Assembly (NCBI RefSeq): GCF_018143015.1
Contig: NC_054751.1
Coordinates: 26,828,783 to 26,892,782, forward strand
Length of the DNA: 64,000 bases
Direction of reading: 5' to 3'
From: Lytechinus variegatus
Taxonomy: Eukaryota; Echinodermata; Echinoidea; Temnopleuroida; Toxopneustidae
The translations under genes and the position numbers were made by a program. Under the pieces are notes generated by a model, which was not told the DNA's origin, did not search any database, and worked only from the letters and a program-made list of their open reading frames with translations. This document shows positions 7,080 through 59,868 of the stretch, one piece after another. Each line of letters begins with the position of its first letter. Position 1 is the first letter of the stretch.

Positions 7080-7229
7080 ATGAATACCAAAGAGAAGCAA
7101 TGCTTGCAGTCTGTGCATGACCTGATTTTGCGAGATGTACGTGCTTGTGATGTTCAAGACTACCTCTTTGAGACCAGTGTTCTAAATTTGGATGACCTGA
7201 CTTCATTAGAAGAGGAGAAAAACCCAAAA
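7080..7229 (+). CDS. CARD-A exon 1 (first half of CARD)
   Basis: It encodes 50 codons and ends in phase 0. An AG acceptor at 7043-7044 (TTACAG) suggests this exon also carries 5' UTR from 7045 and that an upstream non-coding exon exists. The donor at 7230 is weak. Confidence 0.7.
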
Positions 7230-9325
7230 GTACTAGAATAATCTGTTTTAATCCACTCAGGGGGCCATTGTCAAATATGATGTGCAATTTTGCCTGCATG
7301 CAAGCGTTTATCGCTTATCAAGTGACAAGTGCTCATAACATAGGCTACAAACAAGTGTAGAGTAAAATTGTTGGCTATAGCATATCTGTGTGATGTAGAG
7401 TGAATAAGACATGCTTTGCATATTCTGGTCAGAAATAATGCTTTATTGAGGTTAAAGCTAAATTAAAGTAGTTGCAGTAAACACTGATTTTGTGAGAAAG
7501 TCTGTAAAACCAAAGTTAATTATTACTATATCATCATGGATATAGAGCTGGTACAGTTATTGAACTTTGTGAAATCATAAAATCTAAGCTGAAAAACGAT
7601 CACACTAATGATTGCGAACACAGATAGGCAAACGTGGGACAGTGTATTATTATTGCTGGAATAAAGACCCAATGGAAGTGATCGAATCTGCGCTTATTTT
7701 GCTCATTTCTCAGCAATTACACAATTTCTTCCAGAATCCTTTGTCACATATTTTGTATTCATACAAACAGACACTTGGATGGTCATTTTATTAGATTCTG
7801 TAAAAAGTATTTTTGAGATCGTTACCACAACTGGCATTTATCTTTAAGCGATTATTTGACTTGCATGGAATGTCGACTTAGGCAAAGTTGTCTGTAATTG
7901 TACAATGCATAACATTCTTTTGATCCAGAACTTTTACATAATTCTATGGTTACAAAGTAACTTTTACGCATAATTTTTGTTTTCAGAAACAACTAGAGAT
8001 GATACTTAAATGTGTGAATGACAGACCTGATTCTTTTCAACACTTCTCAGATGCATTGCGAGACAGACATCCATATATCCTTCAAGAAATGGAAAAAGCA
8101 CAAGTTTCAGCTTTTGGTAATTGTAAAATCTATCTAACCTTGTTTACAAGCCGGTATTTAAGGGGAAGGGGGCACCCTGTCTTTCAAAATGGACCCTGAG
8201 CAAGTGATCATCAGAGTACCCGAAACATATATTTTTTCCTTTTTTTTTCACCCTAAACTGTACCTCAAATATTTCATTTCTGTGATAAGGTGTAACACAC
8301 CATTCACATTATCCACTATCCAGGTTATTGAAAGTTTTTCCTATTCATCTTATTTTATCAATTTTCACACCATTTTCATCCTACACATGCACATTGCCTG
8401 GCCATGAAAACAATGAATTGCCAATTCGTCCACTGCCAACTCGTCCACTCACCACATGGTCTACCTTCATTTAGTCTAAAACCATTTAATAGGTCCAATC
8501 ATCACTTCGTCTAATCACCTGTTCGTCCTTGACCATTTCGTCTCATAACCAGTTGGTCTAATATTCTGTTTTCATTCCTTTTGCCCAATTAACATTGTCT
8601 ATTATTTGAGACCAAATGGTATATGGACGAAATGGCTATTGTTATTGGACCAACTGGTTATTAGACAAAATGATGAGTGGACAAAATGGCAATGAGATCA
8701 TGTGGATATTGGATGAACTGATGGTAGACCAAATGAAAGTAGAGGAGTTGGCAATGGACGAATTGGCATTGCACCAATTGAAAGTAAACCATGAAAACAA
8801 CCCTTTCTGCATGCTTTTATGTACTAGCATGGTATCGACCTTGTGGTGGCAGCATGTGTATTTTCTGTACCACAACATTGTAACAGAATTATTTTCGGTT
8901 GGCCTGGAATGATTCAAGTAAGGGGTCTATTTTTCTAGTTTATTATTTAAGTACAACATCTCTACCCCTATCTTTTTTATTAGAGTTTGAGATGAACTGT
9001 CAATATTATGAAATACCAGTGCTACCTAACAATGATCAATGAGAGGTTTTAGTATAAAGAGGATAGATTCAGTGATTAGTTGAATTAAGGTTTCTTCCAA
9101 GTCATTAGCTTTCCCAGTATATGTTTTTATTACTTATTCATCCCTTTTATTTTTTACTCAACAGGTCACATTTCTTCTGCTTCTCAGCAGCCTGTTTGTC
9201 CCACCAAGAACTATGAGATTATTGGTGATGGAAACTTTGTTGTTGCTGAGTCCGAAAATACAAGAGTTCACATGAAGCGAAGAGATGTTCCTACTGCAGG
9301 CCTCACGGGACCAGAGCCAAGTTGA
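7080..9325 (+). CDS. CARD-A: CARD protein with C-terminal RHIM-like motif
   Basis: Three-exon model: join(7080-7229, 7987-8116, 9165-9325), 441 nt, 146 aa. Residues 1 to about 88 form a CARD: helix 1 KQCLQSVHDLILRD, then VQDYLFETSVLNLDDL, then after the intron LEMILKCVNDRPDSFQHF and SDALRDRHPYILQEM. It resembles the CARD of CRADD/RAIDD (family knowledge). A short Ser/Gln linker leads to residues 110-130, Y-x-I-I-G-D-G-N-F-V-V then SENTRV, and a short basic and Pro/Gly tail. There is no caspase, kinase or NACHT domain. An in-frame TAG at 7068-7070 favours ATG 7080 as the start, with G at -3. Exon count, first-exon length (50 codons) and intron phases match CARD-B. Likely role (inference): a death-fold adaptor. 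Weak point: the first donor (AAA/GTACTA) is non-consensus; reading through gives a stop three codons later. Confidence 0.75.
7467..7848. repeat. Interspersed repeat, copy 1 (intron of CARD-A)
   Basis: This stretch is closely similar over about 380 bp to 39044-39421 in PIH1D1 intron 1, starting AGTTGCAGTAAACACTGATT and including GGGACAGTGTATTATTATTG. The starting motif alone recurs at about 52028. It is a dispersed non-autonomous element of unknown class; I saw no clear terminal inverted repeat. Confidence 0.75.
7987..8116 (+). CDS. CARD-A exon 2 (second half of CARD)
   Basis: The acceptor is TTTTCAG at 7980-7986 and the donor G/GTAATT is at 8117. The exon is 43 codons plus one base (phase 1). 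It encodes the Phe- and Leu-patterned final CARD helices, including DSFQHFSDALRDR, typical of the AF-x-x-F-x-x-AL pattern in CARD helix 5. Confidence 0.8.
8412..8770. mobile_element. Foldback element with short internal periodicity
   Basis: The left arm has CCAATTCGTCCACTGCCAAC and CTCGTCCACTCACCACATGG; the right arm has ATGGTAGACCAAATG, GAGTTGGCAATGGACGAATT. The arms are inverted relative to one another. Inside them, GTCCA/GTCTA (or GGAC/AGAC on the other arm) recurs about every 10-25 bases, so each arm is itself a degenerate tandem repeat. It lies in CARD-A intron 2. The frame across it is a by-product of the repeat. Confidence 0.75.
9165..9325 (+). CDS. CARD-A exon 3 (linker and RHIM-like C-terminus)
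   Basis: The acceptor is CTCAACAG at 9157-9164; the exon completes a Gly codon and runs to TGA at 9323-9325. It encodes the linker, the motif at 9212-9274 and the tail. The stop is followed within about 60 bp by a MITE, which would lie in the 3' UTR. Confidence 0.75.
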
Positions 9326-9386
9326 TAAAGGATTTTATGTTTCCAACACCTTTCTGCTCGTTGTCTCACCTGAAGAAAGTTCATCA

Positions 9387-9716
9387 GGGTCGCGTGTTAC
9401 AAAGAGTTGTGATTGATCCGATCAACCTAAACTGTATGGCAATCTATCATGTAATAGTTTGTCCTAACATAAATGAAACTTTGCATAATGTTGTTTTGTA
9501 AGCGTAGAGGAGCATTCTGAATTGTCAAGAAAATGGCGAACATATGATTATAGCTACATCATAATATCTAGAAAAAAAATAGAGCAAACGTATGATTACA
9601 GCTACATCACATCTAGAAATTTTTTGTTAGCAAACGTGCACTTTATCTGTTGATGTGGCTGTCTGTCCATAGTTGGGAACGATCAGATCAATCACAAATC
9701 CTTGTGAGACGGGGCC
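9387..9716. mobile_element. MITE, GGGGCCCC family, copy 2
   Basis: It shares the GTTACAAAGAGTTGTGATTG left end and the ATCACAAATCCTTGTGAGAC right end with the element at 5448-5716. An internal duplication (CGTATGATTACAGCTACATC and a near copy just before it) makes this copy longer. It sits directly downstream of the CARD-A stop codon. Confidence 0.7.
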
Positions 9717-10069
9717 ATGGAGTAACTTCTCAATCATCTGCAGCCAAGTTATGGAGCCGGATAGCTATGATACTGAACACCGTTCCATGCTTCGTCTGCT
9801 GGCCAGTTGTAGGATTTCGGTTGGAGGACATTCCTCACCTTGCCCATTGTGAGGTAAAATGTGGTTCAATATTCAATGAGTGGTTTAACAGCAGCATCAT
9901 TTGTGTATGTGCCAGGATTTCTAACTGCAAGGACAGAAACCTATATCAGAGTGTCTAAGAACAGGTTTCAGTCATCCGTAAAGTTGTGCGTAACTTTATG
10001 AACAGCTTTATGAAACACCACCCTGGTAACTTTGCCCCATATCTTTTGGGACTGCAGATATCTATTTGA

Positions 10070-10330
10070 CTTAAAAGTTATGCATTAATATTAATAATAT
10101 ATAGCATTTATGAGGCGCCGATCTATCTAGTTGCCTATTCAGTGGCGCACTATATATTACGCCGGCTGTAGCTCCAGCTGCTAAAGGCGCTTGGTGCATT
10201 CAAGGAATTAATCTTGCCGGGTACCCATTCACCTCACCTGGGTCAAGTGCAGCACAGTGTGGATAAATTTCTTGCTGAAGGAAAACATGCCATGGCTAGG
10301 ATTCAAACCGACGACCCTCTGTTTATTATT
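10070..10330 (-). repeat. tRNA-derived SINE-like repeat
   Basis: Read on the minus strand, GGTCGTCGGTTTGAATCCTA near 10290-10312 fits a pol III B box (GGTTTGAATCC). The + strand side contains CACCTCACCTGGGTCAAGTG and GTGGATAAATTTCTTGCTGA. I recall similar strings as a common interspersed repeat in marine invertebrates. No intact tRNA fold is visible. Confidence 0.5.
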
Positions 10331-10502
10331 GTGATGATTATTATTATTATTTTACTATTAATTGTTTGGTGTCACCTGTGCCTGGGAGGCGAAAAGCGAA
10401 ATGAATCACTGTGACCTGCAGGTCTCTCCTCCCGATATAAGTGATTGGGGGAGTGCAGGTGAACCACTACATATAACATATATTTTGCATAGTGTGGTTT
10501 AA

Positions 10503-11089
10503 AGGGGAATCCAGCCTTGGTTATGAAATATTGTGTTGGAAAGGAGAAAAATAAATAAAAAGTTTGGTAAAAGTTTTAAAGAAATCGGACAGGCAATAAG
10601 AAAATTATGGCTGCTTTAAAATTGAGGTCCCTAAAGCTATGTAGATTTCAATTTGGCAACTGGTTTTATTTGACAAGGGGCAAGGGCAACTTTCCCATAG
10701 GCCACATACTTAATTATCAGGGATTTGTAGTTATCTCCTTTTAAGTACTAGAACCCATTCCCCTGGTTAGTAATCTGAATATAACTCAGGTTGTATTTTT
10801 TGTTATGTCCTCATGAAAGAAAAATATAATTTGCAGTAAAATTGAAAAAAGGAGACATTTTAGCCATTTTAGTATTGGAGTACATGTACATAGAAGAGTA
10901 GTCCTTACTTGCCTTACATCACTACAACATCACATAAATACGGCCTGTTTGAGGTCCATGGGTGTATTTACAACTTTTAGAAATTCACAACATTCTTATT
11001 GTTTTCCGATATTAAAACTTTCCCCCTTCAATTTGTCTAATTATTCTTTTTCCTCTAAAAACAAGATTTTATTTGGATTGGATTCCCCT
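10503..11089. mobile_element. TTAA-flanked MITE (AGGGGAATCC ends)
   Basis: The left end is TTAA-AGGGGAATCCAGCC and the right end is TTGGATTCCCCT-TTAA, giving inverted ends with TTAA on both sides. The interior has no coding frame. TTAA target duplications are characteristic of piggyBac-type transposition. Related ends occur at 16340, 23480, 44105 and 44213. Confidence 0.75.
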
Positions 11090-11330
11090 TTAAAACTTGC
11101 TCCTTGCTTTGACTAAGGAGAATATTTGAAAGTTCTTATGTGTATGTAAGGTTACCTGTAGGCCTATACTTTATACAGATGAATATTAGAATAATCAGAC
11201 ATTCAGAAATTATAGGAAAGCTATTTATCCATTCTTTGATTGTACATTCCGTGTAGCCAGGAGTAATCATAGTTTCTGGGGATTTATTTAACAATTTCTG
11301 ACAGTATACTATCGTCCTCATCCATATGTA

Positions 11331-11392
11331 TTGGTGAGTGGAGGCAATGTTTAGCTGAACAACCAGTAAACAGAGACTGAAGCTTTTGGTCT
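11331..11392 (-). repeat. Dispersed ~60-bp module, copy 1
   Basis: Reverse complement of a module that starts AGACCAAAAGCTTCAGTCTC and ends CTCCACTCACC. It is also present at 21496-21540 (+), 22509-22584 (-) and 32728-32791 (+). Both flanks of the module are conserved while the middle varies. The class is unknown. Confidence 0.65.
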
Positions 11393-11460
11393 GCATTCCA
11401 TGATACATGGAAAGGCTGAAATAGAAAGCAAACATAGACCGGAATATTTGGCTAAAACTA

Positions 11461-12828
11461 CAGTGCGTATAAAAAAACGGGATAGATTTGAAAAGTCTAT
11501 AAAATTGTGGTTTTAAATTATGATCTCTATATTTTGGTGTCAATATGTGCTCTGGAGTCTTATCCTTCAAATGCCATTAAAATAATTTAGTTTTGTTCAT
11601 GTTTGAGCAAACACGGAATGTTTTTTTTCTGGGGTAAAAAAGGAGGCTTGCGCCAAAATGGCATAAAATGATAAATATCATGGTCGGACTTCTTGCTAAT
11701 CAGCAGACTTTCTCTTAACCTTTTCATTATCTTTGCAATAATTTTCAAATTATGTGGCCAAAATTCATTTCCAAATCTACTTATATGCTTGAATAGTTCT
11801 GTTGTTGTTCCTTTTTAATATGTTCTCTTTCAGCTTTGAATATTCCTTCTTTAGGCAAGAACATTTTTTGTTTAAACCAAAGTATGGGAGAGCGTGTTTT
11901 TTTTTCAAATCCTTTCATTGTTTGCTACAAAGGTTATGGTGCCTTTGAAAAGTGGCATACTGAGGGGTGGGGACTCGGGTACTCCCCCCTCAAATAAGAA
12001 TTTATGACCAAGGAAAAAAAAGTGGAAAGGAAAATAACAGAAAACATAGAAAGTGAAATATGATATCATTTTTAATATGTCAAAATGACAAAATTTGATA
12101 TTTTGATGAAAATGTGAAAATTTTTGCTTCCTCGCTTCACAACTTTTTAATACATTTTACCCAATCTGCCATATCTTGCTCCTTCAAAATTGACTCAATA
12201 CACCATTGCAATTGAAAGACATGAATCCTTTCCTGTTTGTCCTGTCAAGCACATGATTAAACCCCTTGAAAATAGGATTCATGTTTTTTGTAGGTACCAT
12301 AACATAATTTGTTTCACATAATAATTATTAAAGGTAACATAACATAATTTTTTCACATAATAGAAAGATTTAAATAATTAGAAATTCTCCCAATTAATAA
12401 TGTAAATCTTCTTACTTGAGTTGACAAAGAGTCTCTTCTTTTCTTACTTATGAAGGAAAATTCAAAGATAAAAGAAGTTTAAATGAAACAAATATAATTC
12501 AGGTAAACAACAAAATTTTTATATGAAATCTCACAGCATAATTCGAAAATTATGGCAAAGATAGTGAAAAGATTAAGAGGAAGTCTGCTGATATGCCGAA
12601 AGTCTAATAATCAAATTTCCCATTTCTGCCATTTTGGCGCAAGCCTCTTTTTGAACCCCCGACAAAAACGTCTCATGTTTGCTCAAGCATGAACAAATTT
12701 TATTTTTTTAAATTGGCATTTCAAAGATAAGATGTTAGAGCATCTATTAACATCAAAATATAGATATAATGATTTGAAACAAAGTTTTTATAGACTTTTC
12801 AAAACTGTCCCTTTTTTTATACGCACTG
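11461..12828. mobile_element. Long-TIR Tc1/mariner-like non-autonomous element
   Basis: TA dinucleotides flank CAGTGCGTATAAAAAAACGG at the left and the inverted TTTTTTTATACGCACTG at the right. The inverted arms extend far inward (GCGCCAAAATGGC near 11650 pairs with GCCATTTTGGCGC near 12630; AGCAGACTTTCTCTTAA pairs with an arm near 12573-12593), so almost the whole 1.37 kb folds back. There is no transposase frame. The 144-codon minus-strand frame at 11136-11570 overlaps the left arm and is chance. Confidence 0.8.
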
Positions 12829-14120
12829 TATAGGGAGCCATTAAAATATGATTTTGTTTAATATATACCCTGTATGTTCGTAGGTACTTTTTGCATGCTT
12901 GAAAGAAAGCCTTTGATAGTGATCATGCCCTAAACTTATTGCTAGATCAAATGCATCAAAGATTGAGTAGGGCCCCACCTCCTGTCAATCGGGTTAATTG
13001 TCACATTCAGAAAATAATATTGAATTTTATACCCCATTCAGTACTTCTTCCACTTCTGGTGCCGTTTAATAATACTTGCTACAAATTAAAAAAAAATAAT
13101 TGCAATAGCAGTTTAAAGCTACTGGAATCATTTGATTTGATCAGCTGACAGTGACTTGTTAGAGAAATTGTGCTTTTGTTATTGTAATATAAATAAGTCT
13201 TCAAGAAACAGAGCCCTAGTCTTTATGATGTAAGATAATGTGCTCAAAACAACTATTGTATCTTTGCTTTTATTGTAGATTCCATAGAAACCTCTACTGT
13301 GATTGGCCGCTGAGCCCTGTTACCATGGCAAAGTTACCATACTTGTAACTATCAATGAGATGGGTTCCAGAACCAGAATTTGCTTCCAGTCTAATTCACA
13401 ATGGACTAGTACCCTTCTTAATTTTTCCTTGACCCTTCCAATAAATTGGTCAACTTTGGAAATCCACTACTGGTAGCACATTTCTATACTACTCACTTCT
13501 ACACCGGGCCAACAGGGAGCATGTATTAACAAAAGTAGCACCGGGATTTTTTTTTTTTAAGTTGGAGGGGGTGCAAGATTGGATTACATGACTGTACTCT
13601 ACATTACTCTCAGTTTTTTTTTCTTTTTCTTTTCCTTTTTCAAAAGTTCAAGGGAGATGATGCCCCCTTGGTGCATATACTGTGGGTGAACCTTCATTTG
13701 CTTTGACCATGCAAGAAATTCGGCCCACATTTAGAAGTGTTCCCTTCCATAATTCTCTGGTCTGTGCCTGGTGCTTCTAAAAGAATCGCCAAATTACCAT
13801 GGATTATCATATTTGGAAAAGTCAATAATTGAAATTCTTATGACATTGAAACTGGTATTGAAATCAGCTCTTGTGTTTGTGATAGTAGTACAATGGTGCT
13901 GGCAGAAGATATTTGAGTATTATCAAAATTATGCGATATTGACAAAAATATTGAATATTTGATAATGAGTTTAACCCGCTAATGAGTGTGTTGATGAAGC
14001 GCTCTAACACGACATGACCAAATTATTGTTGATTATTATATGTTGATCACCATTATTTATTGAATACAAATGTTGCTCTCTAAAGCTTTAAGCCTACATA
14101 GACTGGGCTATTTCAACGCC
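12829..14120. other. Intergenic DNA, no gene seen
   Basis: No credible exon. It contains a T-rich tract near 13610-13640 and otherwise unremarkable AT-rich sequence. A trigram-like string (ATTGGCCGCTGAGCCCTGTTAC) near 13300 looks like a repeat fragment but has no partner that I could identify in the window. Confidence 0.4.
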
Positions 14121-14840
14121 TAAGAAGACTGGGGGGGGGCTGATTCAGCCCCCCCTTATGATCTCGGCCGTCGATCGCGCGATCGCGACGAAAATTGGCA
14201 CATGCATTACCCATGGCATTATCTACAAAACTATAACATCAAATTCTGCAAAAAATCTCATGTTTCATTAATTATGCTAATTTATGCGTAAAATCATAAG
14301 TTTGCTCTAATTAATAAAATAATGCCCCTGAAATGCTAATTTTTGTTTCACATACTCTAGATAGGCATCTGATCAAATTTATTTTTAAAAAAATTCAACA
14401 TCACATTTATTTTCTTATGTATTCTATTGTTTTCTAAATTTCTTATGTATTTCTTTGTTTTTCAACTTTTTGTTTTTTATTGTTTTTTTATGGAAATTGT
14501 CGGGGACTTTATTTTGACCATAAAAAAGAGAAAATCAATTGATTTTAAGCAGTAAAAGGAAAAATAATGATACATTTATGAATTTTGGCTAAAAACACTA
14601 TTTGCATTGGATTTGTACACAAATTCACGTTTTTGAGTAATTTTGGGTCTGCATGCACTTACGAAATGTTGCATAATTTCCGAACCGCGTACCCGGGGGT
14701 CACAATTTTGGTCTCAAAAGTTGCGCGAGACTTGAAAGTAAAAAGTCAGCGAGCGACGCGGTCAAAAAATTTTGCGCGGCGGATTTATCGCGAAAAATGT
14801 TGAGGGGGGGGCTGAATCAGCCCCCCCCAGTCTTTTTAGG
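14121..14840. mobile_element. GC-capped inverted-repeat element
   Basis: The left end AAGACTGGGGGGGGGCTGAT is followed by TCAGCCCCCCC; the right end has the inverted GCTGAATCAGCCCCCCCCAG then TCTTTTTAGG. Each end is itself a G-run/C-run hairpin. The interior shares its order of motifs (GATCTCGGC, GCACATGCATTACC-type, TAATTATGCTAATTTAT, ACCGCGT-CCCGGG, TTGGTCTCAAAAGTTG) with 48360-49005 in PIH1D1 intron 7, so the two are family members. Confidence 0.75.
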
Positions 14841-14968
14841 GTTAAGCCTACTCAGAAATTCGTAATTTGCCTGCTATTTATGAACAAGCACCATCGAAAG
14901 CTTTACTTTAATTTTTTCCTTCCCTGTTCTCACGGAATTGCAGATCATAATATCATGATGAATGTACA

Positions 14969-15082
14969 CAGTGGCGGACCGTGACCCGGAAGAGACAAAG
15001 CATTGGAGGGGCACTGTATTTTTTGTGAACAATGCTGTGCCCCTCCAATGTTTTGTCTCCTCCGGGTCACGGTCCGCCACTG
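14969..15082. mobile_element. 114-bp hAT-like MITE with 8-bp target duplication
   Basis: Nearly perfect foldback: CAGTGGCGGACCGTGACCCG at the left and its inverse CGGGTCACGGTCCGCCACTG at the right, with a short loop around TTTTTTGTGAACAA. The 8-mer AATGTACA flanks it on both sides (14961-14968 and 15083-15090), a clear target-site duplication. CAG-starting TIRs with 8-bp duplications are typical of hAT elements. Confidence 0.9.
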
Positions 15083-16335
15083 AATGTACAAGTACATAAT
15101 GAACTTTTAATCTTGGCGATATATCATGTTATCGACGATATTTAGCTGGCAGTAATCAAAACATTGAAATCAATGTTGATGTACATCATTCAGATTGTCA
15201 AATCATTGTGCAAATATGATTATTATTTTATCGCACACCTGGCAACACTGCTTTTTTCTTGACTACCAAGGTAATCTTAAGGCTTCTTCACTCCTTACGA
15301 CTGGTCCACGATTTGACTTTGGAACAGATTGCATTTTGCTCATTTTCTTTTCATTTACACTTGTAAATGATAAGCATCTTTTTATTTGAGGTACAAATTT
15401 ACTGAAATAATACTAACAGTCTAACATAATAATTTTGGAGTAAAAGCCAAATTAGTTCAAATCATATCCAATGGTATGATTGCTACATGACGTCATCATT
15501 CACTTTTATTCTAATAAGAATGATAGCATGGTCTGAGGTTTGAACATACATGTAGGTATTTGTACGATGAGTTAGAACATTACACAGTATTATTCTGTGT
15601 CTCATTATTACCATCAAATTCTACTACGTTTTATTCCAAAATCACCGGGTCGCAGACCAAGCGTAATGTGTGTGATGGCCTTAAGATGCACAAAATGGTG
15701 ATATTATTTGTGAGTTGGTTAGGCAAATGCTATATCTCTGAGCATGTTTGGCATGGTTTTCTGTAATATTGATGTGTTTTTATTAGGAAAACTACTGGTC
15801 ATACCTCAATGACACTGACTTCAAGTAAAAAGAAAAAGTTATCAATGACGAGATATTTGCTGAGAGCACAAGATCTATGACTCATCTACTGTCATGAAAT
15901 TAAGTGTATTAATATAAGATAAGGAAAAAAGCTACATATGCTTGTTATTATTCAATTATTTGCAAATGTAATACAAAACCACTTTAGGATATTGGTTTAT
16001 TATTTCTTATTGAAAATTTCTAACTCCCTACAATTGCTAAATTTTTGATTGTATCATATGTACCCGTTGTCATTTTGATTTGTTTTTCATTGTAATTAAG
16101 GTTGTATTTTAATGGATGCCAAACATGTTGAATTGAATTAAAAAATTAATGTATGTGCAATTAATTTGTTCTAAATTATGAAATTGAATACAATTGCTCT
16201 CACCAGAAATTAATCCCAGTTCTATTAGACATGTATTATATTTGCATTTGGTTTGTAGTTTTCATTTTCCTGTAGTGCAACAGATCACAAGACACCGAAC
16301 TGGTAGTCTGCAAGCACAGACTCAAAGTTGACACT
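15083..16335. other. Intergenic DNA, no gene seen
   Basis: AT-rich sequence without a supported exon, tandem repeat or long inverted repeat. Short frames around 15195-15766 have low-complexity composition and no splice-site support. Confidence 0.4.
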
Positions 16336-16339
16336 TTAA

Positions 16340-16836: not shown

Positions 16837-17096
16837 TTAACCAAAACTTTGTCTAGAGTGAAGACTAGACTCCAAACTCTGTCTGTGCCAGCCACATGTA
16901 GTACACAGTGAGTCTAGTCCCGGGTCTAGTCTCACTACTTCAGACTCTGCATTATGCAGTTTGCAAAGGCCAAGGGTCTGTGTCTGCAGACTACTTACCT
17001 GGTGCACATGCTCAGTCACCATGGATACCATTCCAAGTTTCAAGAAAAGAATGTGATGCAATCACTTATTTTTATTTCTTTCCTATTTTTGTTGTA

Positions 17097-17915: not shown

Positions 17916-17967
17916 GTATATATATATATTGGTGGGGGCGGGGAAGGGGTAGTTAACAATTACCAGT

Positions 17968-19197
17968 AAACAGCAGTGGCGGATCTAAGATTTAGGGGGT
18001 TACCCTCCCCCCCCCCCCCCCCTAATTGGGATGCCAAGTAAAAAGGAAAAAAAATGAAAGAAAAAAAGAGGAAAAAGAATGGAGAGAAGAGAAGAGGGAA
18101 AAAGGAGGAGGGAAGCGAGTGAGTAAAAGAAAGTGATGTAAAGACTTGGAATATAAAAATGAATTGGTTATCATGTCACTATACAGAATTTCCGCTTGCG
18201 CTCGCATTGCCCGTTCGATGAGATAAAGATCAAGCTCAATAGGCTGAAATGGCTCTCAAAATATCTGGTGTTCAGTTGAAGTAATTATACAATACTCAGC
18301 TCGGACATCGAGCTTTAATTGTACCGTTTCATTTACAAATCGAAATTTGTAAAGTGCTCTGAAAATGTCTGTTTTAGATCTGAATATCTATTATTTCAGC
18401 TTGCACCGCGCACTCAAATTATCTATTTGTATAAGGTGAACTTCACTTTGTGTGTTATTGTCAAAACTTATCAGCTCGCGCTTTGCGCTCGCATTGTTGA
18501 TTTTGAAATTAGATGACCTAAATTTTCATAACTAAAAAGAAAATGTGTTTAGAATGCCTAGATTCTTGATCTAAATGTAAAAAAAAAGAGATCGCGCTTC
18601 GCTTCTCACGCGTGTTTATTGAGACCCGCAGATCTTTTTCAGATCATGATAGAATTTTTAAAAATCTACTCGCGCTTCACACTCGTACTATTCATGAAGG
18701 AAGATTCCTATCCTGTTCATGGTTACAAAATATGAATAAAGCCTCCCATTTTGTTTCTAAATCTCCTTTTTTCCGTTCGCACTTCGCGCTCGCATACTAC
18801 TTCTTAGAAAAGTGCTTCGGGTCAGAATATCAAAAATGTTCAACTCGCGCTTCACGCTAGTTATTTGATTGTTGAAGTATGTAGGCCTATATCGCTTACC
18901 TTGGTAATTGCAAACTGTATCAGACCCGTATATCAAAGTTTCAGCTTGCGCTTTGCGCTAGAAGATCACAAAAAATGCTCAGAGTCAGAATGTTCAATTT
19001 TCGATCAGGACAAAATACATAAAATTTCCACACACAAAAAAAAATAGCTCACGCTTCGTTCTCGCATTAATTAATCGGAACTTAAATAAAATTATCTTGT
19101 TTATAAGAATAAAGCTAAGAATTGAATAAGACTACCTCTTCAAAGAAAAAAAATCCCCCCCCCCCCCCGGAAAAGGGCATGCATGCAGGATCCGCCC
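17968..19197. repeat. Repeat region with ~100-bp-spaced TCGCGCTTCGCGCTCGC motif
   Basis: Variants of C-T-CGCGCTTCGCGCTCGCA lie near 18193, 18399, 18475, 18591, 18669, 18775, 18843, 18943 and 19047, roughly every 70-120 bp (one 206-bp gap has a decayed candidate near 18295). Poly-C runs are found near both edges (18008-18022 and 19157-19168). The left edge reads CAGTGGCGGATC and the right edge contains GGATCCGCC, the hAT-like end motif, so it is probably one non-autonomous element; no target duplication was seen. Confidence 0.65.
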
Positions 19198-20027
19198 TAG
19201 GACGAAAAAAGATCTCCTTACTCCCGATCCTTACTAAGTCTAAATAATTTGAATTGAGCCCCTTTCGAAAAATCCTGGATCCGCCCGTTTGTCATATAGC
19301 ACATGAAAAACACAGCTGAGGCCCGCACAGAGGCCCCATTCTGAATTAATATCCAATCCTTACACAGCAAAGAAAAAATGGTTCTCCACTCAATAAAAAA
19401 TACACTTTTTCTATTATGTCTAACACTCCCAAAAGAATATTGAAATCTTACAATGAAAGTCCGAAAGTTGAGCATTAGTGCTTTAATTCTAAATGCGGGC
19501 TTCCAGAGTTGTTTCTTTTTAACCTAGTTTTTATCTTTGCCGTCTTTTTGCAAAATAAAGCTAAGGTGCGGGGATGTACTAAACTTACCAAGAGCTCAAA
19601 TGAAAACAAATACACACTTCAAAAGATTTTGGTGTAATTTGGAATATAGGTCAATTATTTTTTTTTATCGGGCTATGAAAACAGAAAATACCTCGATGCC
19701 ATATGCTTTTTTCCCAAAAGCATTTGTACAAAAAACGTAAAAATCACCATGCATGATCTGATTGTGATTCTTTGTGTGGGCAGCCCCCGGCCCCTGCAAC
19801 TCCCCCATTAGTTTCAATTCACAATGACTAAAATGCTATCTTTCCCAATATACCAAGAATTTCATGATCAGGACATGCTATTATATATGCTATAGTCCTA
19901 AGAAAAACTCAAGAATTCCAGACTACAATAAAAAAATTAACTGAGGAAAAATTGAAATAAAAAACTTCTGACCAATTTGATAATTTGTTATCCTCTTCAA
20001 CTGATACACTGATCAACTTTCGTATTC
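19198..20027. other. Repeat fragments, no gene seen
   Basis: Near 19258-19290 lies TTTCGAAAAATCCTGGATCC followed by GCCCG, another copy of the hAT-like right end found at 43790 and 63925. The rest is AT-rich with no supported exon. Confidence 0.4.
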
Positions 20028-20191
20028 CTGGGGAGCGTTTCATCAATATTTTCATCCGACAAGTTGTCAGATCTGACATCTTTCCATGATTTTGATTGGC
20101 TGAGAGGCACTGTTCCTATGGTAACCGTCGGATAAAATGGGACTTGTCGGATAAAACGTCCGACGAGTCCTTTCATGAAACGCCCCCCTGG
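20028..20191. mobile_element. ~165-bp MITE, GCGTTTCAT family, copy 1
   Basis: Inverted ends GGGGAGCGTTTCATCAA and TTTCATGAAACGCCCCCC, with inner arms ATCCGACAAGTTGTCAGA and a TCGGATAAAA...GACTTGTCGGAT block. A second copy lies at 46058-46221 and is about 85-90% identical by eye. Confidence 0.8.
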
Positions 20192-21040
20192 ACCGTCTTG
20201 AAATTTCTTCTGCATCAATATACTTTTCTCTCGATCAGTAGTTTTCCACAGACACATTTTTTTAGATTGCCAATTAAGGTTGAATCAGCTGTTTTATGAC
20301 ATTTATTTCCCATTTTTGCTCTTTCTTTAAACCTCATCTGTAACTAATATACCCATCTCATTACTTTTTAGAAATAATTTGAAACTTATTCATTATATGT
20401 TCAATGATATGTTAAGTATTGTAGATCTTTGCCCCGCCCCTTTTTTTAGCGATGTGGATTTCAATATATATACAGTTATATAATATGGGATTTGTATGGG
20501 GATCAATCTTAATTCCGCAATACATAAGGGGAAAGTCGATGTGCATGTATGTTATCATTACTATTATTTATTTTTTTATTTTTTTTTATTTATTTATTTT
20601 TTTAATTATGTGTTTTATTGGTATTCAAAATCACATATAATCACAATATTTACAGGTAATTGGAATGATTTAAAACAGTTCAAAAGCAGTAAAATCACAA
20701 AACAAAGATGAAATAAAAAAATAAATGGAAAAAAAATAAAAAGGGTGACATAAATCAAAGTAAAACATTGGATGATTTATTTTCTCGATCTCGATCTCAT
20801 TCAGTCTTTGCTACGGCCCATTATCATCTAATTTCACCTTACTAATAGCTCAAAATCGAATTACCTGCTACCGAGATTCATTTGTTATTCTTCATAGCAA
20901 ACAAAATATAGAAAAATAAGAATGATTTTGTCTCTGAACATGTCTGAACATGTTACGGATTTGGCGGGAAATTGTAAAATCTCTGTGAATGAATGATAAG
21001 ATTGCCTTTGTTTACATCTTGACAACGCACGTTGTGGAAG
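20192..21040. other. AT-rich low-complexity DNA
   Basis: It contains a T/A simple tract at about 20563-20605 made of TATTT/TTTAT repeats. No supported exon. The sequence changes to more mixed composition near 20980, where the candidate promoter of CARD-B begins. Confidence 0.4.
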
Positions 21041-21209
21041 GGGATTCCCCTGAGTCACGTGATATCTTTTCACCAATCAATGAACACCAACATCAATATT
21101 CTCTTTTCGGCTTTTCTCTCCTCAACTCAAGCTAAAACCTTTTAAACTGTCACCTGCTCACCTGTCAAGAATTCAGAGTTCGGCTCTTCTACACGCTTTG
21201 TTGTACTTT
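21041..21209 (+). promoter_or_regulatory. Candidate promoter and 5' non-coding exon of CARD-B
   Basis: A CACGTG E-box (AGTCACGTGAT, 21056-21061) is followed by CACCAATCAATG, a CCAAT-type site, and then pyrimidine-rich sequence ending at a strong donor, TTT/GTAAGTATT (GT at 21210). CARD-B needs an upstream exon, because its first coding exon is preceded by an acceptor at 23131-23133. The link is inference from position and splice-site quality. Confidence 0.35.
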
Positions 21210-21495
21210 GTAAGTATTATAGAATAAGAAGATGTAGATAATGATTTGAATTGCAGTTCTTTTGTTTATTATATTTCATTTGTAAAAAAAAAACCCAGCG
21301 CTATTATTATTAGAGTAACACTTTGGTCGTCTGTCGGTGCCTGATGCCCACCGAACCGCGCCGCGACCTTCCAGTCACCCCATAGTCACGGCGACTTGAC
21401 TGGTAGTAATAAGACAGCTGGCGCTGGCAGCCGTCTGTTTTGAGGAGTTTCTTAACATTTTTTTCTCCTTTAACTTAGACGGCTAGCGATCGTGT

Positions 21496-21540
21496 AGACC
21501 AAAAGCTTCAGTCTCTGTAGTTCGTTGGCTCACTCACCAA
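21496..21540 (+). repeat. Dispersed module, copy 2
   Basis: AGACCAAAAGCTTCAGTCTC through CTCACTCACC. It continues into GGGGATTATGTCAGAAATTG and AATAAATCCCCAGAAACGA, a tail also found after the copy at 32728. Here the tail is contiguous, whereas in the 32.7 kb copy it is interrupted by about 650 bp. Confidence 0.65.
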
Positions 21541-22508
21541 TAATACATGAATGGGGATTATGTCAGAAATTGTTGAATAAATCCCCAGAAACGATGGTTA
21601 TTCCTGTCTAGCGATCGTGCAGCCGCCATTATTTTAAGCCGGTTAAACATGAAAAATCCCCCTGACAGCACTCATTCAATGAACAAGGTTATGATATAAC
21701 CTTGTTCTCAGTTACATCCCCATGTGTGGCCAAATAATGGTGGCAATGTTTGGCTTAATTTCTCTTTTTATGGGACAAATGCTTGATTTTCTTACTCTGT
21801 CAGTTTTCATTACAGCTATTCATCATATAACTTTGCACTTATGCAAATTTAATTTTTTGAATTATTTTTTTCTCAATTAAAATTAGAGATTGAAAAATGA
21901 CAAATTTCTTGCCATATAACTTTCCACCAATAGAGGGCGTACACAAAAATATGCCCAAAACTCGAGTTTTTGAGCACTCTGGTGAATACAAAAATTAATC
22001 CCAAGTTACTAATGAAAAATAAATTGCAACTGTATGGAAATTAGTAATTTTGGTGACAAAAGTGATATTTTAATGATTTTTTAAAGCGTGTGCTATGTAC
22101 AGCATTGGCATACCATAGTCCTACCTGTAGATTCCCCACATGCAGGATGGTTGCAGTGAACAAGTGCCTGACAGGGCTCATCGATTTTTGTCTTCATATG
22201 ATGTCATGGTCTTTTATTTCATAAAATTAAAATAACTGAAGTCTGAACATGCTGAACCAATTCCAAAAATACAAAATAAAGATAAGTTATTCCGTTTTGA
22301 CCTGAAATGCACCAAAACGGGAAAAATTAAACTGAAAAGGAAAATATCAGTGACTTAGTTTGGCTGTCGCGCAACTCCCACTTCCCTGGTTTATCCGGAC
22401 GTACCGTAATACATAAACACTAAAACAGATGGCCATTATAAAGTCCCTGTACAGACCAATCGAGTTAGAACTTACTTAGGTCTCTGTACTGTAGACTGTA
22501 GCTGTAAT

Positions 22509-22584
22509 TGGTGAGTGGAGCCATCAGAGTTCAGCGGAACAACAATAGTACCGGTAATACGACAGAGACCGAAGGTTTTGGTCA
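22509..22584 (-). repeat. Dispersed module, copy 3
   Basis: Reverse-complement copy: GGTGAGTGGAGCCA, GTTCAGCGGAACAAC and AGAGACCGAAGGTTTTGGTC. Short frames across it are not coding. Confidence 0.6.
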
Positions 22585-23155
22585 AGACTGGTACTGCACT
22601 GGTAGTGGTTGCAGTTTGGCCTCTTTGCTACACTGTATGCCTATTATTTTTACGCTTGGCTTGGCCACTCACACGAATGGGAGTTTCGGATTATTATAAA
22701 ACATAAAAGGCGTAGTAAGTGGCGTGTAAGTTTCGGGTAGATTTCTATGACTAAATTCTCGTCTAATATGGGAAGACATGTGCAGATGTGTGGGCACCAA
22801 ACCCAGCCAGAGAGCTCCTGATTATTGGGCAACATGCAATTAAACTGGGGGGGTTCTATTTTTGCCAATTAAATTCACATTTTTCACAACCTTAATTTAA
22901 TACAGAATTCAGGACTTTGGTAGTTTTTTTCTAGCATTTCGCGAGGAAAGGTCAGATTTTGAAATTCATGTTATCAAAAAATGCGGAAGGATTATTTTTA
23001 TTTTTTTACAAGTTTTAATTTAATTACAAGCTTTCCAATTCCACAGGCGAGATGGATTGATCAGTCTCAGCAAGCAAAAAATCTCATAATATGTTTGATT
23101 CTATTTCTTGATTACTTGTATTTTGTTTTCTAGACAAATTCTGCCAAAGTCTGGG

Positions 23156-23305
23156 ATGGATCCTGTTCACCGTATGGTATTGCAGAAGAACTGGACCTAC
23201 CTTTTAGATTCCTTGAAAAGTGAGGATGTCATCCCTTATCTCATTCAAGAATTAGTCCTGGACATTGACATGGTGGAAGAAATTGAAGCCGCAGAAACCA
23301 ACAAG
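23156..23305 (+). CDS. CARD-B exon 1 (first half of CARD)
   Basis: 50 codons, ending AAG/GTGAGA at 23305 (phase 0), exactly the length and phase of CARD-A exon 1. The acceptor TTTTCTAG ends at 23133, so 23134-23155 is 5' UTR or additional coding sequence. Confidence 0.85.
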
Positions 23306-26300
23306 GTGAGAAATGGGAAAATGCAATTAACTGAGCTACAGTATATTAATGTTACATGTATGCAGGGAATGTGCAAATATTGAAATATTTTAACATAGAT
23401 TTACATTTACTATATTAATATCTAGTCTAGAAAGTAATGCATTTGCCTCATTACCATGGATTTTCATTTTCTTCCTTAAAGGAAAAGTCCACCCCAACCA
23501 AAAAAATGATTTGAATAAAAAGAGAAAAATCTAACAAGCACAACACTGAAAATTTCATAAAAATCGGATTTAAAATAAGAGAGTTATGACATTTTAAAAT
23601 TTTGCTTAATTTCACAAAACAGTTATATGCACATCCTGGTCGGTATGCAAATGAGGAGACTGATGACGTCATCCACTCACTGTTTCTTTTGTGTTTTATT
23701 ACATGAAATATGAAATATTCTAATTTTCCTTTCATTGACAAGTGAAACAGTGATTAATTCCTCCCTGAACATGTGGAATTAGCATTGTTTAAAACTTTAT
23801 GGTTCAGTCAAGTTGGTCCCTATGGTAAAATCTGTACAAAATGAAATATTGTATATTATTCAAACAATAAAAAAAATACTAAGTCATGGACATCATCAAC
23901 TGACTCATTTGCATGTAACTGGCTCATTCATATAACTATTTTGTTAAAAATGAGCGAAACTTTGAAATGTCATAACTTTCTTATTTTACATCCGATTTTG
24001 ATGAAACATTTTATTTTGATGAAATTTCAGCATTGTGCTTGTCTGATTTTTCTCTATTGATTCAAATCAACATTTTTCTGAGGTGGGCTTGACCTTTAAA
24101 ATAAGTACAGGTAACTCTACGTAAGTCGACATTCCATAAGTCAAATAATCGCCCAAGTCGAAGCAAGTTTTTAGTCCAGATAATTAAAAATATGTGTTGT
24201 GCATGTACTTCATTTACATGTAAGTCAATTTTTTTCCTAAGTCGAACAGATTTCTCTGGTCCTTAGAGATTCGACTTAATAGGAAGAGTCACTTGTACAT
24301 GTGCCTGTGTGTCTATTACATGCTGTATTGCTTAGCCATTTGATTCATAATAAGTCACATGCAGAGATTGGCAACACCAATCTATTCAAGTGTTGGAGGG
24401 AGGGGGGAGACAATGCAACAGGCCAGAGACTTACATGTAGTCAAAGTTGAAGTTTACTCAATAAAAAGATAATCTAACCCTAAAATGATATCAGTGTTTT
24501 AAGATTAAGTGTAAGTATATAAAGATCAGTAGTGCTAAGAAAAAAACCTAGTGATGATTACTTTGTTGAGGCATTTCTTTTCGCTTATTGTCAGTACTTG
24601 AAATGGTTGATCTATTTTGTTTCCTGATGTGTCAGTTTTCATGCCCTCAAATTGCACATTCCATGTTTCCTCAACTAGGAATTCCAACATTACTGATTTA
24701 AGTACATGTACCTACAATGTATGTTATCTTAATCTCAAACAGCAAAAGACGAGGCGACTCATGACCAAACTGATGCGGAGAGGGCCGACAGCCTACCAGG
24801 CTTTCAGGGAATCGCTGCAGCAATACGACGTGTATGATCACCTGGTACAAAGACTTGATTCCACTCGGATTGATCCAGCCCTGCTTCCTGCACCTTCACC
24901 AAAGACATCACAGTCAGGTATCCATGGGTTGTTGGAGTTTGAAAAGACATGTATCATTCAGATATCATTTATCATGGACCGATCTTTAACGTCACCATGT
25001 GAAAGATGTGACCAGGGCTCGAACTTCTGCATCAGTTTGTAACTTCTCCAATGTTTTTTATTTTTTGTCTCACCTGCATAGCAGAGTGAGACTATAGGCG
25101 CCGCTTTTCCGACGGCGGCGGCGTCAACATCAAATCTTAACCTGAGGTTAAGTTTTTGAAATGACATCATAACTTAGAAAGTATATGGACCTAGTTCATG
25201 AAACTTGGCCATAAGGTTAATCAAGTATTACTGAACATCCTATTAGAGTTTCATGTCACATGACCAAGGTCAAAGGTCATTTAGGGTCAATGAACTTAGA
25301 CCATGTTGGAGGAATCAACATCAAAATCTTAACCTGAGGTTAAGTTTTTGAAATGTCATCATAACTTAGAAAATATATGGACCTAGTTCATGAAACTTGG
25401 ACATAAGGTTAATCAAGTATCACTGAACATCCTGCATGAGTTTCACGTCACATGACCAAGGTCAAAGGTCATTTAGGGTCAATGAACTTTGGCCGAATTG
25501 GGGGTATCTGTTGAATTCCCATCATAACTTTGAAAGTTTATGGATCTGATTCATGAAACTTGGACATAATAGTAACCAATCATCACTGAACATTTTATTT
25601 TGTGCAAGTTTCAGGTCTCATGATTAAGGTCAAAGGTCATTTAGGGTCAATGAACTTTGGCCGAATTGTGGGTATCTGTTGAATTACCATCATAACTTTG
25701 AATGTTTATTGATCTAGTTCATTACACTTGGACATTAAAGTAATCAAGTATCACTGAACATCCTGTGCGCGTTTCAGGTCACATGACCAAGGTCAAAGGT
25801 CAATGAACTTTGGCCGAATTGGGTTATCTGTTGAATTACCATCATAACTTTGAAAGTTTATGGATCTGATTCATGAAACTTGTACATAAGAGTAATCAAG
25901 TATCATTGAACATCCTGTGTGAGTTTCAGGTCACATGATCAAGGTCAAAGGTCATGTAAGGTCAATGAACTTTGGCCATGTTGTGTTTTTTTGTTGAATA
26001 ACCATCATATCTCTGTAAGTTTATTGGTCTAGTTCATAAAAAGTGGACATAAGAGTAACCATGTATCACTAAACATCTTGTGCGAGTTAGAGTAGTTTTC
26101 AAAGTCAGCACTGCTGCTATATTGAACTGCGTGATGCAGGTGAGACGGCCAGAGGCATTCCACTTGTTATTTAATAGTTTCCACTCGTGGGCTGGATGGC
26201 CCTCTTCAGCCACAGACTGTTCTTCAGAGAGGTCGAGTATTGTAGCTTGGATTACAGGTGCATGCCATAATGTCTAGTTTGGGCACCTTTAGAGTTAGGA

Positions 26301-26917
26301 TTAAGGCACATTTACAAAATTAAGACTTGACAGCCAGCCCTTGCCACCATAATCTGTATGTTAGCAAACTGATAATGGACTGATGATTAGGACAAGATAA
26401 TTGGCAGCCCAAGGTGGGGGGGGTTAAACCACCTCCTCCCCCTTTAGATTCACCACTAGACTGGAACAGTTTCTTATGTCCAAAGCACAAGAAGGGCTCA
26501 CTAGTCATGCGTTAAGTCATTTTGTAACTTACAAATAGTTTCTGAAACACCCACCATCATATTCTTGGACAGGATATGTTGTCAATTATGTGGCAAATCG
26601 TGAAAACAGCTCCTTTGTTTTGTATAGATTTCATTGGTATTTTATATTCTAAATTGTCAATTTACTACACAGAACAACCCGATATAGGGATCACTCAAAT
26701 GGAAGAAGACACACCAAGCCAGCCTTCAACACTCTGTTCTCAGACATTCCAGCCACAACCAGTACAACAGACACCGCAGCAGCTACCACAACCACCACAA
26801 CAGCCACCACAACAATCATCATTGCCAATGACAACAGGAAACAGCAATTTTAGGATAGCAGGCAACAATAACTTTGTCATCATGGGTAGCAATAATACCC
26901 AGGTGTACTACCATTGA
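23156..26917 (+). CDS. CARD-B: CARD, Pro/Gln linker, C-terminal RHIM-like motif
   Basis: Three-exon model: join(23156-23305, 24743-24917, 26673-26917), 570 nt, 189 aa. Residues 1 to about 95 are a CARD like the prodomain CARDs of caspase-2/caspase-9: MDPVHRMVLQKNWTYLLDSL, then EDVIPYLIQELVLD, VEEIEAAE, and after the intron RRLMTKLMRRGPTAYQAF and RESLQQYDVYDHLVQRL. Residues 109-163 are a low-complexity linker rich in Pro and Gln (QTPQQLPQPPQQ). Residues 165-189 end the protein with N-x-N-F-R-I-A-G-N-N-N-F-V-I-M-G-S-N-N-T and QVYYH. There is no protease domain, so it is not a caspase. ATG 23156 has G at -3 and +4; the frame is open back to the acceptor, so an earlier start is possible. Likely role (inference): a CARD adaptor able to polymerise through its tail. 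Confidence 0.85.
23480..24095. mobile_element. TTAA-flanked MITE in CARD-B intron 1
   Basis: TTAA-AGGAAAAGTCCACCCC at the left and GGTGGGCTTGACCT-TTAA at the right; the arms are inverted and continue inward (GAAAATTTCATAAAAATCGG pairs with CCGATTTTGATGAAA). A close copy, including about 90 bp of sequence to the left of this one, is found at about 44283-44984. Confidence 0.75.
24108..24295. mobile_element. pogo/Tigger-like 188-bp MITE
   Basis: TA-flanked. It starts CAGGTAACTCTACGTAAGTC and ends with the related inverse GACTTAATAGGAAGAGTCAC then TTG. Internal AAGTCGAA/TTCGACTT repeats are typical of pogo/Tigger termini. There is no coding frame. Confidence 0.7.
24743..24917 (+). CDS. CARD-B exon 2 (second half of CARD)
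   Basis: The acceptor CTCAAACAG ends at 24742 and the donor G/GTATCC begins at 24918. 58 codons plus one base (phase 1, as in CARD-A exon 2). It encodes GPTAYQAFRESLQQ, the classic CARD helix 5 pattern, and a Pro-rich beginning of the linker. Confidence 0.85.
25078..26145. repeat. Tandem-repeat element with five DR1 motifs
   Basis: Bounded by TCTCACCTGCA and the inverse TGCAGGTGAGA. The interior is a tandem array of units about 150-190 bp long containing CATCATAACTT, ATGAAACTTGGACATAA, CACTGAACATCCTG, CACATGACCAAGGTCAAAGG and TTTAGGGTCAATGAAC. A perfect AGGTCAAAGGTCA, a direct repeat of AGGTCA spaced by one base, occurs at 25267, 25459, 25627, 25790 and 25942. It lies in CARD-B intron 2. The CGCCGCTTTTCC-GACGGCGGCGGCG head near 25098 is familiar to me from repeats in other marine invertebrates. 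Confidence 0.85.
26673..26917 (+). CDS. CARD-B exon 3 (PQ linker and RHIM-like tail)
   Basis: The acceptor ACTACACAG ends at 26672; the exon completes a Glu codon and ends at TGA 26915-26917. The linker is coded by a CAA/CAG/CCA-rich stretch (26757-26820) prone to length change. The motif occupies 26840-26914. Confidence 0.85.
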
Positions 26918-57400: not shown

Positions 57401-57440
57401 TCATATTCATGACAGACCACCTAATAATAAAGGAAAAAAA

Positions 57441-59775: not shown

Positions 59776-59868
59776 AAAAAAAAAAAAAAAAAGAGAGTCA
59801 AGCGAGGTTTGAACCAGCGACCCTAGTGTTACCAGGCAGGTGCGTTATCCAGTCGACCACGATCTTCC
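59776..59868 (-). repeat. tRNA-like segment, copy 3
   Basis: Same segment in the third unit; B box intact. The fourth unit ends before this segment. Confidence 0.6.

Follow-up and report, generated by a model that had tools for sequence, protein, structure and literature searches.

Do the two small CARD proteins encoded in a 64,000-nucleotide stretch of Lytechinus variegatus DNA, referred to in the following as the window, carry a RHIM at their C-terminal ends, as the initial annotation had proposed, or is the motif that they share something else? Both genes, CARD-A and CARD-B, were located where they had been placed, and their exons and tail motifs are listed in Table 1. The introns had GT–AG ends in four cases out of four, and the reading frames fit. 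The two genes follow a common exon plan, with an exon 1 of 150 nt and intron phases of 0 and 1, and encode products of 146 aa (CARD-A) and 189 aa (CARD-B).

Table 1. Exons and tail motifs of CARD-A and CARD-B in the window.
Feature	Positions	Strand	Content	Located by
CARD-A exon 1	7080..7229	+	First 50 codons, first CARD half, then GT donor	tblastn, 100%
CARD-A exon 2	7987..8116	+	Second CARD half, phase 1 end	tblastn
CARD-A exon 3	9165..9325	+	Linker, tail motif, 15 more residues, stop	tblastn
CARD-A tail motif	9209..9277	+	Residues 109–131, NYEIIGDGNFVVAESENTRVHMK	
CARD-B exon 1	23156..23305	+	First 50 codons, first CARD half, then GT donor	tblastn
CARD-B exon 2	24743..24917	+	Second CARD half and linker start, phase 1 end	tblastn
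CARD-B exon 3	26673..26917	+	Pro/Gln-rich linker, tail motif, stop	tblastn
CARD-B tail motif	26846..26914	+	Residues 167–189, NFRIAGNN-NFVIMGSN-NTQVYYH, very C-terminus	

Spliced CARD-A was identical over 146/146 residues to the Lytechinus variegatus NCBI protein LOC121425051, and a protein from L. pictus matched CARD-B at 90% identity over its full length. Because CARD-A and CARD-B match these proteins from end to end, exon 3 is spliced to the CARD exons in the public gene models; the joining that had been proposed was thus borne out at the level of those predicted models. Two S. purpuratus records do disagree at the junction after exon 2, as might be expected if the joined models were wrong and exon 3 came from other transcripts, but we consider this extremely unlikely: splice sites and frames are consistent, and CARD and tail occur in the same order in public A and B proteins from three urchin genera.

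The presence of a CARD in both proteins was confirmed. The Pfam CARD family (PF00619, cut-off 23.9 bits) matched CARD-A with an E-value of 3.2e-5 (24.3 bits) and CARD-B with 2.9e-15 (56.5 bits), and no other Pfam domain was found in either protein; among other CARD-A proteins, that of Diadema scored above the cut-off (25.4 bits) and that of S. purpuratus below it (21.6 bits). AlphaFold2 models, made for L. variegatus CARD-A and for the L. pictus orthologue of CARD-B, had seven helical segments each, the first helix being in two pieces, with block means of pLDDT over the CARD mostly about 90. The predicted structure is a helical-bundle death fold, and the nearest natural solved folds were APAF1 CARDs, with target-normalised TM-scores of up to 0.93 (B) and 0.87 (A). 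The best Foldseek E-values were 5.7e-4 for B and 1.3e-3 for A, with none ≤0.001 for A; a designed protein topped the B list, and CED-3/CED-4 and RAIDD entries ranked lower in both lists. The best PDB sequence match of CARD-B was RAIDD (8.8e-6).

CARD-A and CARD-B are an ancient tandem-duplicated CARD adaptor gene pair of sea urchins. The two proteins matched each other by BLASTP with E=3e-7 in a single comparison, and identity between them was higher in the tail (10/21) than in the CARD (20/87; p=0.03). The gapless alignment of the tails over 21 residues, described earlier with nine identities, is real, and contains 10. When residues were shuffled, 0 of 1000 permutations matched the tail score in each of six A–B pairs (p=0.001 each, the floor of the test), which rules out chance as the source of the likeness. 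A relaxed core, [IV]xGxxN[FY][VILC], occurred twice among the 725 stop-free stretches of at least 40 aa in the window (41,743 residues), once in exon 3 of each gene. The paralogy of the genes and their common exon plan mean that they share the tail by descent; the exon plan and the CARD alignment ruled out that two unrelated genes had each come to carry the same motif by convergence.

Conservation of the motif in orthologues had been set in advance as a test, and it was found among echinoids, in Strongylocentrotus and Diadema. The B tail was recovered from L. variegatus, L. pictus, S. purpuratus, D. antillarum and D. setosum, and the A tail from L. variegatus, S. purpuratus and D. antillarum; protein searches returned no named orthologue outside the echinoids. 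From Lytechinus to Diadema, the tail is more conserved than the linker in both paralogues. Between the L. variegatus and D. antillarum CARD-B proteins, 20/23 tail residues were identical, compared with 62/90 in the CARD and, with gaps counted, 21/82 in the linker (tail versus linker, Fisher p=1.3e-7); for CARD-A, the counts were 17/23 in the tail and, again with gaps counted, 6/18 in the linker (p=0.013). The tail was not significantly better kept than the CARD in the same species comparison (Fisher p=0.12 for B and 0.23 for A), and when CARD-A of L. variegatus was compared with that of S. purpuratus, its tail (18/23, 78%) was slightly less conserved than its CARD (75/93, 81%). Both observations count against the functional explanation that we favor below.

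The CARD-B tail repeats an 8-residue pattern almost three times, an arrangement that suits strand-turn-strand arches. In a test spanning lags 3–12, the 8-residue period gave p=0.0016 in L. variegatus, 0.0012 in S. purpuratus and 0.0068 in Diadema, these three B tails being orthologues and not independent samples. No significant octad repeat was found in the A tails (p=0.13, 0.10 and 0.42), which counts against the beta-assembly explanation given below. Predicted aggregation-prone runs, called on an AGGRESCAN-type scale, fell on all three B units and also on three spots in the linker. In the monomer models, the tail was of low confidence, with block means of at most 56 pLDDT, and formed neither strands nor helices.

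The core of the RHIM is the tetrad (V/I)-Q-(V/I/L/C)-G (PMC9444067). This tetrad was absent from all 12 proteins scanned (eight tail-bearing and four tail-less fragments), and the position of its Gln, two before the Gly, is an invariant Ile in 7/7 distinct tails. The E or R that the initial annotation pointed to sits at G minus 3. The hydrophobic residues before the Gly lie mainly at G-4 and G-2, not at G-3 and G-1. The Pfam RHIM family (PF12721) gave no match at E-values up to 10 in seven of the eight tail-bearing proteins (all but that of D. setosum) and five tail peptides, in a search whose HMMER filters drop most weak matches, whereas a RIPK3 peptide used as positive control was hit at 2.5e-12 (46.3 bits). 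Searching the PDB with the tail profile at E-values up to 10 returned seven sequences, each of them a lectin or an agglutinin, and retrieved no RIPK chain; these matches (best E 0.036) were taken as chance, as were the NHL and Gp44_C rows of the tail peptides in Pfam, which fell below the cut-off.

What likeness to the RHIM remains, G-x-x-N-[FY] followed by a hydrophobic residue, is weak. It is nevertheless the starting point for an explanation that makes the tail a genuine, if divergent, RHIM that shares ancestry with the RHIMs of RIPK1 and RIPK3 and couples CARD assembly to RHIM amyloid. One resemblance was that between GNHNFVIVG of Diadema and GNHNYMDVG of RIPK1, the latter presumably the mouse sequence (permutation p=0.0015). 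Four of 18 pairwise tests fell below 0.05, uncorrected, while RIPK–RIPK benchmarks reached the floor of p=0.0005 in 3/3 cases. A column-permutation test of the tail profile against the RHIM gave p=0.0355 with all tails, 0.034 with B and 0.15 with A, and hhalign gave P=0.011, over nine columns and with a probability of 3.8%. CARD plus RHIM proteins are also reported from bivalves (PMC12452177). With the missing tetrad, the fixed Ile, the shifted hydrophobics and the silent Pfam family set against these points, homology to the RHIM is in our judgment improbable, and the identification of the tail as a RHIM could not be upheld. What stands of the CARD-RHIM adaptor proposal is a pair of CARD proteins with a shared C-terminal motif conserved in other sea urchins.

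No convincing further copy was found in the window by tblastn or with the family profile. The tblastn search with 11 proteins returned the six exons and, besides these, two weak matches (E 0.28 and 0.85), and the family profile returned six stretches at E≤2.5e-11 and one at 0.93, two being named among the matches listed. No Pfam family reached its cut-off, at E-values up to 0.1, in 22 selected ORFs of the window (14 of 67–146 aa between positions 9617 and 20284, joined into two strings for the scan, and eight others), and the window contained no tRNA and no Rfam match at gathering score. Pattern searches yielded 101 stretches in prokaryote genomes and 134 in viral contigs, of which tblastn confirmed none in prokaryotes and none were confirmed in the viral set. 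Protein searches revealed the tail on no receptor and no effector, which also speaks against the explanation that we favor below; they gave echinoid CARD-A/B proteins and fragments of these. A literature search for the locus numbers gave nothing.

We tentatively favor an explanation in which CARD-A and CARD-B act as CARD adaptors and carry in their tail a motif for beta-assembly, RHIM-like in action without belonging to the RHIM family. The CARD would join an apoptosome- or RAIDD-type CARD assembly, and the tail, on its floppy linker, would act as a short strand-turn-strand-turn-strand motif. Once the CARDs had brought the proteins together, the tails could co-assemble, A with B or the two with a partner bearing the same motif, and in this way would work like a RHIM. 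A close rival, which we hold to be somewhat less probable, is that the tail does not self-assemble but serves as a short linear motif for docking to a folded domain of a partner (TRAF, BIR, kinase or PDZ-like), either adding a beta-strand to that domain or being gripped by it; the proteins would then be CARD adaptors of the ordinary kind that bear a client peptide. A short, conserved, probably disordered tail with low model confidence near the C-terminus would be expected just as much if it were a docking peptide; CARD-B stops three residues past the last invariant Val, and the A tail shows no significant octad periodicity. Most docking peptides are, however, shorter than 23 residues, the B tail has its internal octad repeat, and the pattern of hydrophobic, Gly and Asn residues would suit beta-arches.

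Mammalian CARD-only proteins cap CARD assemblies as decoys, and the small size of the urchin proteins, in which the CARD is the sole Pfam domain, would fit regulators of that kind, with the tail serving solubility or localisation and having no part in assembly. We regard this as very unlikely: in both paralogues, the tail far outlasts the linker between Lytechinus and Diadema, which disfavors the tail being an incidental extension. Beta-assembly also has a bolder form, in which metazoans would have, independently of the RHIM, a second signalling-amyloid motif in this tail, its N-F-x-I-x-G-x-N octads folding into stacked beta-arches joined directly to an apoptosome-type CARD. This is unlikely as matters stand, although the distinct amyloid motif that the initial annotation had raised as an alternative is a more interesting reading than RHIM identity. 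If it were true, echinoids would possess a relay from CARD to amyloid with an evolutionary origin separate from that of the necrosome RHIMs; a tail that is a docking peptide only would still be an element conserved among the CARD proteins of urchins.

A review asks whether animals and their viruses have any signalling amyloid besides the RHIM (PMC7889193), and according to two surveys echinoderms have no RIPK1 that bears a RHIM (PMC12119088, PMC11507063). The tail of the urchin CARD adaptors, of which no description was found in the literature searched, is a small, easily synthesised candidate that makes this question testable.

Among known systems, the CARD fold is common to the urchin proteins and RAIDD (CRADD), APAF1 and CED-3/caspase-9; in place of the death domain, NB-ARC or caspase domain of these proteins, none of which was detected by Pfam, CARD-A and CARD-B have a linker that leads to the conserved tail of 23 residues. 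Like the RHIMs of RIPK1 and RIPK3, the tail is a short strand-prone motif with a G-x-x-N-[FY]-hydrophobic core, and in CARD-B, as in the RIPK1 RHIM, a second Gly follows eight residues past the first; it differs in its lack of the tetrad, its shifted hydrophobic register and the lack of a Pfam or significant hhalign match. The annotation had not known of a described CARD-RHIM arrangement, but such a protein is already in print from bivalves and their virus, bivalve iridovirus 1 (BiIV1_006R; PMC12452177). BiIV1_006R, like the urchin proteins, reportedly combines a predicted CARD and an amyloid-type motif in one invertebrate-associated protein; its motif is reported as a RHIM, while the urchin tail is not so recognised by Pfam. 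The fungal and bacterial amyloid signalling motifs (PP, HET-s type, sigma and BASS) differ from the urchin case in that the adjacency of the urchin genes follows from tandem duplication, that no NLR or pore-former was seen among the 22 window ORFs scanned, and that no prokaryote relative was confirmed. They nevertheless present the same design, a short terminal motif on a cell-death or immune module that is common to the products of neighbouring genes (PMC7889193, PMC8086366).

In the window, which is sea-urchin DNA, two neighbouring genes, CARD-A and CARD-B, follow the same three-exon plan (see the table), with GT–AG ends on all four introns, a first exon of exactly 150 nt in both, and identical intron phases (intron 1, phase 0; intron 2, phase 1). 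Spliced CARD-A equals the NCBI L. variegatus protein LOC121425051 at 146/146 residues, and an L. pictus protein matches CARD-B at 90% identity over its full length. The shared exon plan and a BLASTP E-value of 3e-7 between the two products (a single comparison) indicate that the genes are tandem paralogues and that their common C-terminal tail was inherited. At the exon 2–exon 3 join of CARD-B, the S. purpuratus records disagree, with GNIQIK in P0002 and E in P0005, which hints at alternative splicing directly ahead of the tail exon.

Features of the window (positions in nt)
Feature	Position	Remarks
CARD-A exons 1-3	7080-7229, 7987-8116, 9165-9325	
CARD-B exons 1-3	23156-23305, 24743-24917, 26673-26917	
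CARD-B exon 2-exon 3 join	24917/26673	S. purpuratus records differ
Minisatellite-like array	25124-26088	CARD-B intron 2; periods 192 and 163 bp
Second conserved stretch	26681-26710	CARD-B exon 3, linker start; D-[IL]-G-I-T, then acidic run
Direct repeat, 255 nt	54086-54340 and 61622-61876	99% identical, 7.5 kb apart, flanking the tandem array
Tandem array	56696-60675	four copies, unit ~1.17 kb
Stop-free stretch in array	59199-59510	minus strand
Stop-free stretch, 178 aa	63185-63718	minus strand

The Pfam CARD model scored CARD-B at 56.5 bits and CARD-A at 24.3 bits (cut-off 23.9), with the S. purpuratus A protein under the cut-off at 21.6 bits; Pfam detected no other domain in CARD-A or CARD-B. 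By sequence, the nearest solved CARD was RAIDD for CARD-B (E = 8.8e-6) and APAF1 for CARD-A (E = 0.055, non-significant; a designed protein gave 0.052). AlphaFold2 models were built on seven-row alignments for CARD-A itself (P0007) and for the L. pictus orthologue P0001 as a proxy for CARD-B; they predicted confident CARDs and low-confidence tails with neither strands nor helices. Among the Foldseek matches listed, APAF1 CARDs came top or nearly so for both models, with target-normalised TM-scores reaching 0.93 for B and 0.87 for A; a de novo designed protein took rank one in the B list and rank five in the A list. E-values of 0.001 or below were reached by 3 of 115 matches for B and 0 of 183 for A (best 50 of each listed).

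Searches of 5.8 billion proteins gave 6 matches among 132 candidates for CARD-B and 3 among 11 for CARD-A (E up to 0.1), and 11 among 1841 for a joint profile (E up to 10), all echinoid proteins or urchin-like fragments; since a match required words of five residues in common, remote echinoderm relatives could have gone undetected. The 23-residue tail is present in eight proteins: five B (L. variegatus, from the window, L. pictus, S. purpuratus, D. antillarum and D. setosum) and three A (L. variegatus, S. purpuratus and D. antillarum). The C-terminal motif that the initial annotation had described on two CARD genes is real, and it is kept in Lytechinus, Strongylocentrotus and Diadema orthologues. 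Since the B tail of L. pictus does not differ from that of L. variegatus, the tail alignment holds seven distinct rows.

Between L. variegatus and D. antillarum, CARD-B identities were 62/90 in the CARD, 20/23 in the tail and 21/82 in the intervening linker (21/61 without gaps); the CARD-A values were 54/93, 17/23 and 6/18 (6/15). With gaps counted, the tail exceeded the linker (Fisher p = 1.3e-7 for B, 0.013 for A) and was not significantly higher than the CARD (p = 0.12 and 0.23); these tests assume independent sites and serve as a rough guide. Against S. purpuratus, CARD-B retained 22/23 in the tail, 72/90 in the CARD and 52/83 in the linker, and CARD-A 18/23 in the tail, slightly under its CARD (75/93), and 10/15 in the linker. 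Between the L. variegatus paralogues, 10/21 tail and 20/87 CARD positions were identical (p = 0.03). We take this pattern to mean that selection has acted on the tail in both duplicate lineages. The D-[IL]-G-I-T stretch with its acidic run occurs only in CARD-B, in 5/5 orthologues, in an otherwise mostly variable linker, and could be a further docking site or a protease site.

The initial annotation had proposed that these proteins are CARD-RHIM adaptors. The available text of a review (PMC9444067) gives the tetrad (V/I)-Q-(V/I/L/C)-G as the defining feature of a RHIM. That tetrad was found in 0 of 12 urchin proteins scanned, eight of them tail-bearing; the core Gln is replaced, as had been noted, and Ile occupies its position in 7/7 distinct tails. 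The hydrophobic residues ahead of the Gly lie mainly at G-4 and G-2, whereas those of RHIMs lie at G-3 and G-1. Pfam RHIM gave no match to the 7 urchin proteins and 5 tail peptides submitted to it, but picked up a RIPK3 peptide, the positive control, at 2.5e-12 (this control also grazed the HET-S family, 0.033). A six-row tail profile run against the PDB (E up to 10) returned seven sequences, all lectins or agglutinins, with no RIPK chain, and hhalign, given the seven-row tail profile and a RIPK profile of three rows, aligned nine columns at a probability of 3.8% (P = 0.011). In ungapped comparisons with three RIPK RHIMs, listed in the PDB only as RIPK1/RIPK3 and presumably human or mouse, with residue shuffles as control, 4 of 18 tests gave p < 0.05, uncorrected, from 0.0015 (Diadema B against what we take to be mouse RIPK1) to 0.96. 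Column-permuted profiles gave p = 0.0355 for all tails together, 0.034 for those of B and 0.15 for those of A; RIPK against RIPK hit the floor p in 3/3. These outcomes point to a weak resemblance around G-x-x-N-[FY] that falls short of the RHIM membership that had been proposed; shared ancestry, convergence on a turn or chance could each account for it.

The CARD-B tail reads NFRIAGNN / NFVIMGSN / NTQVYYH, nearly three eight-residue units. Eight was the best lag among 3–12 in 6/6 tails tested, with p = 0.0016, 0.0012 and 0.0068 against same-residue shuffles for three B tails; three A tails were not significant (p = 0.13, 0.10 and 0.42). I6, G8, N11, F12, S17, T20 and V22 are invariant across the seven rows. 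Such a pattern would suit a pair of beta-arches in which Gly/Asn turns connect three short strands. A simple aggregation scale flags FRI, FVIMG and QVYYH in the CARD-B tail, and also IGITQ, TLCSQ and LPM in the linker.

The simplest mechanism would be an adaptor made of CARD, linker and strand-prone tail, in which the CARD joins an apoptosome-like CARD assembly and the tail thereafter assembles with like tails, A with B, or with a partner. Alternatively, the tail may act as a docking peptide that a folded domain binds, which would account for most of these observations. The eight-residue repeat and the extent of the tail, 23 residues, lead us to favour, by a small margin, CARD assembly followed by beta-assembly of the tail. 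The tail is a possible amyloid signalling element, a role that is cheap to test.

Elsewhere in the window, 300-nt stretches of the 1.17-kb copies are 92–98% alike relative to a reference copy, one stretch being present in only three copies. Every copy has a minus-strand stop-free stretch of 104–107 aa, and the one in the table had no Pfam match. The flanking 255-nt pair may mark a mobile element or duplication. The 178-aa stretch matched SNaCT9, a NACHT-associated C-terminal domain family, at E = 0.023 (15.5 bits against a threshold of 27), probably by chance.

In the open-licence literature, locus numbers retrieved nothing on these urchin genes, phrases such as 'CARD and RHIM' no echinoderm title, and, among the matches listed for RHIM + CARD + echinoderm and for RHIM + sea urchin, none bore a title on the two genes. 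The available text of a 2007 survey gives S. purpuratus 12 CARD matches and 42 caspases (PMC2246300). As far as the accessible parts of two further surveys go, RIPK1 with a RHIM tetrad is reported as absent from echinoderms (PMC12119088) and ambulacrarian RIPK1 as lacking a RHIM (PMC11507063); against these, a sea-cucumber paper names AjRIPK3, its available text not stating the RHIM status (PMC11932488). The available text of PMC12452177 reports a protein with both CARD and RHIM from bivalves and from bivalve iridovirus 1; the architecture itself, which the initial annotation had not known as described, is therefore already in print. CARD adaptors as such are known, and the urchin proteins are CARD adaptors with a new conserved tail.
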